DNA of 35,233 nt, taken from contig PNOB01000005.1 of assembly GCA_013824585.1 (NCBI GenBank), positions 1 to 35,233 on the forward strand. Direction: 5' to 3'. Below the pieces are notes generated by a model, which was not told the DNA's origin, did no database searches, and worked only from the letters and a program-made list of their open reading frames with translations. The stretch's first letter is position 1. Each line of letters starts with the position of its first letter. This DNA is from Desulfobacterium sp. (GTDB lineage Bacteria > Desulfobacterota > Desulfobacteria > Desulfobacterales > SURF-7). The position numbers were made by a program, and so were the translations under genes. Below, piece by piece: positions 28,272 through 30,841 of this stretch.

Positions 28272-28622
28272 TTAAACATGGACTTCCAATTTTTCAAGAA
28301 TTGCATCAAGCAAACGGATAAACCAGTTTCGCTGGGATTCCGTTGCATAGCGAACACAATCGCACCTTACCCGATTGCCGGTTCGTACGAGAAGTTCACA
28401 TGATAGTTTATCCGGTTCAAGTTCAACAGCAAAGTAAAAGGGTTTGCACGCATCATGCGAAATCTGTATTTCAGCAAGAATTTTCGGATCTATATGTATC
28501 CAGTAAATGCCACCGATTTTTGATGCTTCGAAGTGGTCGTCAAAATATGTTTTAATCTTCTCGTAGTCTTCTATCCTCAGTTCGTCTATTACGTATTGTT
28601 TCATGGCATTTCGAGTTATCAC
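28272..28622 (-). CDS. Uncharacterised protein; start could be ATG 28604
   Basis: Intact ORF MKQYVIDELRIEDYEKIKTYFDDHFEASKIGGIYWIHIDPKILAEIQ..., codon use looks coding, same strand and upstream of RNase J; no family recognised. Confidence 0.7.
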   Translation of the reverse strand: MITRNAMKQYVIDELRIEDYEKIKTYFDDHFEASKIGGIYWIHIDPKILAEIQISHDACKPFYFAVELEPDKLSCELLVRTGNRVRCDCVRYATESQRNWFIRLLDAILEKLEVHV

Positions 28623-28701
28623 AGTTCAATTGATGGTGCAATATATATTCTGTCACTCACTTTCTTGACAAGATGAAAGATATCTGGTAACTGGAGTGAT
28701 C

Positions 28702-28803
28702 ATGAGTAACTTCCAAAATCAAAAAGGACCGGGTTATTTTTACAGCTATTATTGTTTTTTTGGTTTTTTTAGCTGGCTATGCGGCCTGGATGGAGGAGGT
28801 TGA
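28702..28803 (+). CDS. Candidate aromatic amino acid leader peptide MSNFQNQKGPGYFYSYYCFFGFFSWLCGLDGGG
   Basis: GGAG RBS at 28692-28695, ATG 28702, TGA 28801-28803; core YFYSYYCFFGFFSW; followed by a terminator and an aromatic-biosynthesis operon. Confidence 0.75.
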   Translation: MSNFQNQKGPGYFYSYYCFFGFFSWLCGLDGGG

Positions 28804-28829
28804 CCATCATATAAAGAGACATCTTTACA

Positions 28830-28864
28830 GGGCCGCAAGCAAAGCTTGCGGCCCTTTTTTTTTA
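28830..28864 (+). terminator. Intrinsic terminator (attenuator) upstream of ADH-synthase-like gene
   Basis: GGGCCGCAAGC-AAA-GCTTGCGGCCC followed by a run of 10 T; located 39 nt upstream of the downstream gene start. Confidence 0.93.
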
Positions 28865-28902
28865 ATCACAAAAAAAGTGATCCAACCTAAAAAGGAGGAA
28901 GT

Positions 28903-29694
28903 ATGCATCTCGGGAAAATGGTCAGACTGGAAAGAATCTTTAATCGCAATACAAGGAAAACAATTATTGTTCCACTGGATCATGGGGTCAGTGTAGGGCC
29001 TATTTTTGGTGTTGTTGATCTGAGAGATACAATTGACAAGGTGGCTGAGGGTGGCGCCAATGCTGTGCTGATGCATAAAGGATTGCCTCGGCGATCCCAT
29101 CGTGGTCATGGCCGCGATATTGGTCTGATCATTCATCTTTCAGCCAGCACTGACCTTTCTCCTTATCCCAATGCAAAGACATTGGTCGGGGAAGTTGAGG
29201 ATGCAATTCGTCTTGGAGCAGATGCGGTTTCGGTTCATGTGAACCTGGGTGACGAGACGGAAAGAAACATGTTGAATGAGTTTGGAGCGATCTCTACACG
29301 TGCAAACAATTGGGGAATGCCGGTTTTGGCCATGGTCTATGCAAGAGGGCCTAAGATCAAGAATGGGTTTGATCCGGAGGTTGTAAAACATTGTGCGCGA
29401 CTCGGAGAAGAGCTTGGGGCCGATGTTGTTAAAGTTCCTTATACAGGAGATGCAGAGACATTCCGGAATGTTGTTGAAAGCTGCTGTATTCCTGTCGTGA
29501 TTGCAGGTGGTCCAAAGATGGATAATCAAAGAGACATCGTTCAGATGGTGTATGATTCCATCCAGGCAGGCGGTGCAGGTTTGTCGGTCGGAAGAAATAT
29601 TTTTCAGGCAGAGGATCCCAGCAGGCTGGTTAGAGCATTACATGGAGTGGTTCATCAGAATTGGAATGTTGAGCAAGCCATGCATGAATTGTAA
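28903..29694 (+). CDS. 2-amino-3,7-dideoxy-D-threo-hept-6-ulosonate (ADH) synthase-like class I aldolase (DhnA/FbaB family)
   Basis: [40 protein letters not shown]...HKG...[30 protein letters not shown]...[15 protein letters not shown]; adjacent to pheA; AGGAGG RBS. Confidence 0.88.
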
Positions 29695-29704
29695 AGGTGA
29701 TAAA

Positions 29705-30841
29705 ATGGGTGTTAACCATCAATCAGACAATGTTTTTTTTGATGATAAAGGCGTGGATAAAAAAAAGTTAGAGGATATCCGTTCGAAGATTGATCGTATT
29801 GATATGGGATTGCTGGAACTATTAAACCATCGGGCAGAGTTATGCAAGGAGGTGGGAGGGATAAAGTCCGTATCCAAAGAATCGGTTTTTAAACCTTTTC
29901 GGGAAAAAGAGGTTATGAAAAAGCTCATTTCCCAAAATCCGGGGCATTTGCCGGATGATCATTTACGGGCGATTTACCGGGAAATACTATCCTCCTCGCG
30001 AAAATTGCAGCAGCCTCAGAAAGTGGTATATCTCGGTCCGGAAGGGACCTTTTCTTACTTTGCCGGAATCGAGTACCTTGGTCATAGCGCAGATTTGAAG
30101 CCTTGCAACAGTTTAAAAGAGGTGTTTCAGATTGTTGAAAAACATGAAGCCGAGCTGGGTATCATTCCTTTGGAAAATTCTCTTCAAGGCAGTGTCGGAC
30201 AAAGCCTGGATTTTTTTTTAACTTATAAAGTATTTATCCAGGCAGAAGTTTTCTGTAAAACCAGTCATTCTCTGTTGAGCGCAGATACATCTCTTGCCCG
30301 CATCCATACAGTGTATTCTCATCCTCAAGCGCTGGAACAGTGCTCCAACTGGCTCAGGACACACCTCCCGGAAGTCGGAATAATTCCAGTTGAAAGTACT
30401 TCCGCAGCAGCGATTAAGGTAATCGATGAACAGGGAAGTGCAGCCATTGGGCATGAAAAGCTGGGGGATATGTTTGGGCTTAATATTCTGAGTTGCCAGA
30501 TAGAAGATTTTCCGGATAACTGGACTCGTTTCATGATAATCGGGCCGACACTGCCCGAGGGTGGCCATCAGGACAAAACTTCCCTTTTATTTACACTGCC
30601 AGATAAATCCGGTGCTCTTGCCAGCGTATTGACAGTTCTGGCTCAAAATGGAATTAATTTAAAGAAACTTGAATCAAGGCCACTCCGATCGGAAAAATGG
30701 AAATATGTTTTTTTTGCAGATCTTGAATGTGACCTGTCCGGAGAACAATACCAGGATTTAAAAAAGGAGCTTTCAAAGCAATGCAGTAGTCTTCAGATTC
30801 TGGGAAGCTATCCAGCGGGGGCATATATCAGTACTTTATAA
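29705..30841 (+). CDS. pheA: Bifunctional chorismate mutase/prephenate dehydratase
   Basis: N-terminal chorismate mutase (LEDIRSKIDRIDMGLLELLNHRAELCKEVGGIK), prephenate dehydratase (YLGPEGTFSYFAG, PLENSLQGSV), ACT domain (KTSLLFTLPDKSGALASVLTVLAQNGINLKKLESRP); RBS AAAGGTG before ATG 29705. Confidence 0.95.
   Translation: MGVNHQSDNVFFDDKGVDKKKLEDIRSKIDRIDMGLLELLNHRAELCKEVGGIKSVSKESVFKPFREKEVMKKLISQNPGHLPDDHLRAIYREILSSSRKLQQPQKVVYLGPEGTFSYFAGIEYLGHSADLKPCNSLKEVFQIVEKHEAELGIIPLENSLQGSVGQSLDFFLTYKVFIQAEVFCKTSHSLLSADTSLARIHTVYSHPQALEQCSNWLRTHLPEVGIIPVESTSAAAIKVIDEQGSAAIGHEKLGDMFGLNILSCQIEDFPDNWTRFMIIGPTLPEGGHQDKTSLLFTLPDKSGALASVLTVLAQNGINLKKLESRPLRSEKWKYVFFADLECDLSGEQYQDLKKELSKQCSSLQILGSYPAGAYISTL

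Follow-up and report, generated by a model that had tools for sequence, protein, structure and literature searches.

A predicted leader element precedes an ADH synthase gene in a 35,233-nucleotide stretch of Desulfobacterium sp. DNA (contig PNOB01000005.1), referred to here as the window. The ADH synthase gene is followed by pheA, and the neighboring gene upstream of the leader (28272-28622) lies on the opposite strand. The features of the locus are listed below.

28665-28670, plus strand: -35 element TTGACA, assigned from the sequence and the conserved spacing in related class I leaders
28687-28692, plus strand: putative -10 element GTAACT with a 16-nt spacer, assigned on the same grounds
28702-28803, plus strand: predicted leader peptide ORF MSNFQNQKGPGYFYSYYCFFGFFSWLCGLDGGG, 33 codons, ATG at 28702 and TGA at 28801-28803; aromatic-rich counterparts lie upstream of related ADH synthase and DAHP synthase genes
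28735-28776, plus strand: regulatory codons 12-25, YFYSYYCFFGFFSW, assigned from the aromatic count; the predicted antiterminator forms with the A-site at or before codon 23 and is lost from codon 25
28780-28787, plus strand: region 2, TGCGGCCT, the antiterminator 5' strand inside the leader ORF, assigned from folding and own-versus-cross pairing
28830-28840, plus strand: terminator 5' arm GGGCCGCAAGC, also the antiterminator 3' strand, assigned from sequence, terminator search, pairing, and folding
28844-28863, plus strand: terminator 3' arm GCTTGCGGCCC (28844-28854) and 9-nt U-tract (28855-28863), assigned from sequence and terminator search
28892-28899, plus strand: Shine-Dalgarno-like AAGGAGGA of the first structural gene, from sequence
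28903-29694, plus strand: ADH synthase (2-amino-3,7-dideoxy-D-threo-hept-6-ulosonate synthase), aroA'; TIGR01949, 395.6 bits (cut-off 299.45), DeoC/LacD fold family
29705-30841, plus strand: chorismate mutase/prephenate dehydratase (pheA); PRK11898, 243.7 bits (cut-off 219), Pfam CM_2, PDT, and ACT

The initial annotation had proposed a Tyr/Phe/Trp-sensing attenuator at this locus, and the coordinates it gave are right: TTGACA and the 33-codon leader ORF are present, as is the ADH synthase gene from 28903. The complementarity it described between GCGGCC (28781-28786) and GGCCGC (28831-28836), extended by flanking T-A and T-G pairs, is also present in the sequence. The terminator stem (28830-28840/28844-28854) is real, but the T run has 9 residues rather than 10, and the gap between the stop codon and the stem measures 26 nt rather than 27. 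The aromatic core is strongly enriched as claimed, but its composition is 9 Tyr/Phe plus one Trp, not 10 plus one: 4 Tyr, 5 Phe, and 1 Trp give 10 aromatics in 14 codons. Dinucleotide shuffling of the leader region equalled this count once in 20,000 trials, and the runner-up among all short ORFs of the window has 7 aromatics. Two terminator sites were found in the leader region, where shuffles lead one to expect 0.6, and the terminator described here is the stronger. Rfam searches at gathering scores detected no T-box, known riboswitch, or other leader in the window, and no leader family, T-box, or known riboswitch in the leaders of 20 related loci. Phe_leader (RF01859) scored 20.3 bits on the window, below its gathering score of 55, and Trp_leader (RF00513) scored 18.7 bits, below 41; all matches at relaxed thresholds were sub-threshold and driven by the terminator.

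Relatives of the ADH synthase were found in 45 of 59 related genomes, some of them distant aldolases at ~30% identity. Further loci were drawn from named genomes, the class, and the phylum, and most loci come from metagenome assemblies. A leader ORF rich in Phe, Tyr, and Trp, followed by a terminator, precedes most ADH synthase genes of Desulfobacterota. Genes closer than ~57% identity have upstream ORFs that are ~25-35 codons long and include 6-12 Phe/Tyr/Trp codons; one or two terminators come after most of them. A density of 7 or more aromatics in 12 codons is reached by an ORF in 106 of 162 upstream regions compared with 11 of 810 shuffled regions. Aromatic-rich leaders are present in most of the Desulfobacteria and Desulfovibrionaceae loci examined and also in other classes of the phylum; the carriers include Desulfosudis oleivorans, Desulfobotulus alkaliphilus, Desulfoluna, Fundidesulfovibrio, Nitratidesulfovibrio, and Pseudodesulfovibrio. 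The initial annotation had staked its proposal on conservation of the aromatic codon run and on GCGGCC/GGCCGC covariation in orthologous leaders, and this comparison of upstream regions bears out the first of these expectations, both of which were set beforehand.

The leaders fall into two main classes. In class I, the type in the window, the leader tail is GCCTGYGGYC, complementary to GGCCGCAGGC, and only one terminator is present, with GGCCGCAGGC as its 5' arm. This leader goes with an ADH synthase clade supported at 100/100 that includes the Desulfovibrionaceae. In class II, the tail GGTCTGCC is complementary to GGGCAGACC in a first hairpin, and there is usually a second hairpin too. Class II operons run ADH synthase, 3-dehydroquinate synthase II, chorismate mutase/prephenate dehydratase, and shikimate dehydrogenase. 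A tight search of the relatives with the class I DNA pattern returned two already-known class I leaders and one apparent chance site. The third ADH synthase class (L163-L170) and the Aquificota and archaeal genes served as natural negatives, and no convincing leader plus terminator was detected upstream of them. The L163-L170 proteins form a third clade within the same order, ~50-58% identical to the window protein, that goes without the aromatic leader. Counting against the attenuator reading, no leader was detectable at three class I genes of the same family (L006, L007, and L012); together with a misfit class I candidate, L083, they indicate that the element can be lost or mis-assigned. Upstream of the L007 ADH synthase gene TTGACA is retained, but neither leader ORF nor terminator is left, as would be expected from a deletion of the attenuator. 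Three class I ADH synthase genes (L013, L014, and L015) are followed by genes other than pheA (a YjbQ-like gene, a HisA-like gene, and an ORF of no assigned family), and these enzymes are possibly stand-alone isozymes. A further leader type precedes ADH synthase in deltaproteobacterial metagenome-assembled genomes (L055, L064, L072, and L073); it has a Tyr-rich run, then EGAVR or similar, and a single terminator.

The promoter also has a class-specific position. The distance from TTGACA to the ATG is 35-40 nt in 22 of 32 related class I leaders, and one more has TTGACT at 37. An exact TTGACA this close to the ATG places the predicted transcript start at the ATG or a few bases before it, about 28698-28702 in the window, so the predicted leader ORF would be nearly leaderless. 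The GTAACT -10 element was missed by a strict promoter consensus scan of the leader region. In class II leaders the distance from the promoter element to the ATG is mostly 49-100 nt. Class I leaders may thus be translated as near-leaderless messages; if so, the GGAG upstream of the window leader ORF falls outside the transcript.

Conservation also bears on the idea that the real product is a small membrane protein (VIFTAIIVFLVFLAGYAAWMEEVDHH...) encoded in the +1 frame, with the aromatic ORF as its out-of-frame by-product. In the window and its genus relatives the +1 frame stays open across the terminator and resembles a transmembrane helix, and the substitutions between L001 and L002, two species of the genus, are conservative in it. 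The same pair counts against the attenuator reading, since the aromatic run loses one Phe and one Tyr codon between them. The +1 frame has no usable start codon before the hydrophobic stretch, however, and stop codons interrupt it in 21 of 27 leaders of class I and in 61 of 86 of class II. Its Leu, Ile, and Val codons arise automatically from a T-rich run of Phe and Tyr codons. We rejected the +1-frame protein on the missing start and the stops, and consider it extremely unlikely.

The pairing between the leader tail and the terminator arm was examined by comparing each tail with its own arm and with the arms of other loci. Class I pairing scores -22.3 kcal/mol within loci versus -19.8 kcal/mol between loci (0 of 20,000 permutations), and class II pairing -21.9 versus -19.1 kcal/mol (0 of 5,000 permutations); these permutation figures are not strict probabilities because related sequences share ancestry. 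The class II leader tail paired with B, the 5' arm of the second hairpin, is a control with the same phylogeny and gave no within-locus excess (p=0.27). With the tail anchored by consensus rather than by complementarity, pairing holds in 91% of cells, and 4 of the 10 antiterminator positions show compensatory changes on both strands. L033 carries a compensatory swap of CTG/CAG to CAG/CTG, and L042 is another example. The inner TGCGCT:AGCGCA helix of class II showed no own-versus-cross signal (p=0.25), although single compensatory pairs are visible by eye, and we make no claim of coevolution for it. In the class II leader L079 a one-base deletion shifts the frame over conserved nucleotides (TGCLAV versus TGLPG), and the tail is therefore kept as RNA, not as peptide. 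These data supply the covariation that the initial annotation had called for. They also argue against reading the hairpin as an ordinary intergenic terminator beside an incidental ORF. A strong intrinsic terminator is indeed present, but the upstream gene is on the other strand and delivers no transcript to end, the terminator arm covaries with the leader tail, and the arrangement recurs over the phylum. We assign this reading next to no probability.

The position of the pairing relative to a translating ribosome was modeled with the leading edge assumed to lie 13 nt downstream of the start of the A-site codon. With this footprint and the RNA energies, both of which are approximations, the predicted antiterminator probability in the window before the 3' arm exists is 0.90 for every ribosome position through codon 23 and falls to 0 for those between codon 25 and the stop. 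Of 29 class I loci, 28 together have 234 aromatic codons before the predicted switch point and 6 after it; L083 is the candidate that fails. The corresponding counts in class II are 550 and 8 in 60 of 60 loci. Pooled over 88 loci, 784 of 798 aromatic codons are upstream of the predicted on/off point of the antiterminator, which is where the aromatic run ends. Region 2 of most class I leaders begins at a nearly constant distance, 24-27 nt ahead of the last stop-codon base, and this fits masking by a terminating ribosome. The folding check proposed in the initial annotation gave the expected outcome: the leader RNA is 4.6 SD more stable than its shuffles, and the switch point matches the proposed logic.

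Two folding results count against a simple switch. At equilibrium the full leader prefers the terminator (-37.3 kcal/mol) over the antiterminator (-29.9 kcal/mol), so antitermination must be kinetic, a kinetic trap. The pause/protector hairpin between regions 1 and 2 found in E. coli trp was not predicted in the window, where the antiterminator probability is still 0.90 with the ribosome at codon 1; we did not require this hairpin for family membership. Ribosome-free window RNA extending to the terminator loop folds with the antiterminator. Without the 1:2 hairpin the untranslated leader should read through, and the synchronization of ribosome and polymerase is left without an explanation. The stall and release logic of the initial annotation thus agrees with folding, but the protective hairpin of the classical scheme does not appear.

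These data identify the window element as a ribosome-mediated, leader-peptide transcription attenuator of the ADH synthase/pheA operon, with a probability of about 0.93. The predicted short ORF carries a codon run for the end products of the operon and is class-conserved in relatives. An intrinsic terminator (28830-28863) separates it from the first structural gene, as at most related loci. A mutually exclusive antiterminator, supported by the pairing tests and compensatory changes, has its 5' strand at the ORF end, and in the folding model a stalled ribosome frees it and a ribosome at the stop covers it. The operon encodes enzymes that make the cognate aromatic products, which counts for attenuation. 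Computation directly supports the ORF and the terminator, the alternative pairing with its covariation, the place of the switch point, and the conservation; translation of the ORF, the promoter, kinetic trapping, and the choice among the three amino acids are inferred. Transcription would start at the leader ATG or a few bases before it. With Phe, Tyr, and Trp tRNAs charged and plentiful, the ribosome would reach the stop and cover region 2, and the terminator would form. With any aromatic tRNA in short supply, the ribosome would stall in codons 12-23 and leave region 2 free to pair with the terminator 5' arm while the 3' arm is still to be transcribed, and polymerase would read through into the ADH synthase and pheA genes.

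The stall could in principle have another cause. Ribosome arrest by some nascent chains is triggered by free amino acids, by Trp in the case of TnaC, and by analogy free aromatic amino acids rather than tRNA starvation might act on this leader peptide. We regard such arrest as very unlikely. Only the number of aromatics before the switch point is conserved, not their order or spacing, and the sign of control would be wrong for a biosynthetic operon, since excess would switch it on.

How many amino acids an attenuator of this kind senses is a separate matter. One amino acid, most likely Phe, might effectively be sensed, with the Tyr and Trp codons as passengers. The window operon carries pheA, and Phe is the commonest aromatic in the class I leaders of Desulfobacteria (F 19.6%, Y 7.6%, and W 1.8% of residues). 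A precedent is the Corynebacterium glutamicum AroR leader, which has a Phe-Tyr-Phe run and controls aroF, encoding a DAHP synthase (PMC11802643, PMC4046766); in the work of Neshat et al. (2014), as reviewed in PMC11802643, its Tyr codon gave no response to Tyr, and the leader answered Phe only. Against Phe-only sensing, Phe, Tyr, and Trp codons all precede the switch point, Tyr is the commonest aromatic in class II leaders (Y 17.8%, F 14.0%, and W 2.9%), 51 of 82 of which contain Trp, and the operons feed all three products, as mixed control predicts. Sensing of Phe alone strikes us as possible but rather doubtful.

Most class II leaders differ from the window leader in their terminators. Leaders L016-L030, L054, L058, and L107-L162 carry a tandem pair of terminators, hairpin 1 (A:A') and hairpin 2 (B:B'), whose stems are nearly identical and each of which has its own U-tract. 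The stems match, so A' is able to pair with B. An independent second terminator is unlikely because the genes would stay off even with the first terminator relieved, and A':B pairing offers an escape. A':B pairing is stronger within loci (-16.7) than between loci (-15.0; 0 of 5,000 permutations), although A'/B likeness would also be expected from a duplicated terminator. If the first antiterminator, tail:A, holds, A':B is predicted to form before B' is made in 59 of 60 loci; at equilibrium A':B beats B:B' in only 7 of 60. The modeling suggests a kinetic domino in which tail:A and A':B together would open both terminators.

The class II pattern search also matched genomes that have neither a class I nor a class II ADH synthase. 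In these genomes the leader precedes an aroFGH-type DAHP synthase (475-477 bits versus 173.2). An aromatic leader is present at 28 of 30 DAHP synthase loci, nearly all with the class II signature. The class II-type attenuator lies before DAHP synthase at L190-L219 and at L179, L180, L184, and L187, from Desulfobacteria lacking ADH synthase. A by-eye comparison of 98 genomes of the class found ADH synthase in 53, aroFGH-type DAHP synthase in 38, and both in one. At one DAHP synthase locus the next gene is represented by a 100-residue fragment that resembles the start of an AroB-type dehydroquinate synthase but scores below the family cut-off. Retention of the leader before a non-homologous DAHP synthase indicates that the switch follows the pathway step through enzyme exchange. 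At L247, a DAHP synthase locus from another class, the tail of the leader MNPKTSIFFWYFSLWRAPGPTPCA is CTCCCGGG, which finds its complement in a different terminator stem; the architecture of this leader is shared with the other aromatic leaders and its RNA sequence is unrelated. A joint reading, to which we give even odds, is that an ancestral attenuator responding to any of the three aromatics was kept across Desulfobacterota through ADH/DAHP synthase exchange, with one branch acquiring the tandem-terminator domino and the window branch a near-leaderless leader ORF.

Leader-peptide attenuation is a textbook mechanism. The E. coli ilvGMEDA and thrA leaders are multivalent, with several amino acids per leader, as predicted for the mixed leader here. 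The his leader alternates domino pairings (AB/CD/EF versus BC/DE) and resembles the class II domino, but in class II both competing hairpins have their own U-tract. We know of no case among these leaders that senses the aromatic amino acids together. The E. coli pheL/pheA attenuator (RF01859) shares with the window a Phe-rich leader, overlapping terminator and antiterminator, and control of a chorismate mutase/prephenate dehydratase; the window differs in its added Tyr and Trp codons, in having ADH synthase first, and in lacking a predicted 1:2 hairpin. The initial annotation had called the element undescribed. This is only partly right: in the open literature searched, we found no account of this leader in Desulfobacterota, whether of its codons or of how widely it occurs, but two comparable elements are already published. 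AroR likewise represents leader-peptide attenuation of the first aromatic step with Phe and Tyr codons; it has a Phe-Tyr-Phe run rather than ten aromatics, belongs to another phylum, responds to Phe only, and controls DAHP rather than ADH synthase, and the text on it in PMC11802643 and PMC4046766 describes neither Trp codons nor tandem terminators. Given this distance, convergence is likely. The other is a putative attenuator before aroA'>aroB'>aroQ-pheA>aroF>tyrA>trp of Desulfovibrio vulgaris, from Merino's list (PMC1173090 Table 7, 2005), which shares with the window an aroA' (ADH synthase) operon head, a predicted attenuator, and the phylum. As tabulated there, the entry comes without a leader peptide, regulatory codons, conservation, or mechanism. 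What appears to be new is the mixed Phe/Tyr/Trp leader, its ADH synthase target, its persistence over the enzyme swap, and the tandem-terminator branch.

The archaeal-type (ADH synthase) entry to aromatic biosynthesis in bacteria would thereby gain a regulator, and a gap in Rfam, which has no matching model, would be filled for a phylum made up mostly of sulfate reducers. With well over a hundred natural variants of the mixed-codon leader, it becomes testable how a ribosome-based sensor weighs three tRNAs. One RNA switch appears to outlive replacement of the enzyme that it controls, which suggests that regulation stays with the step in the pathway rather than with the gene.
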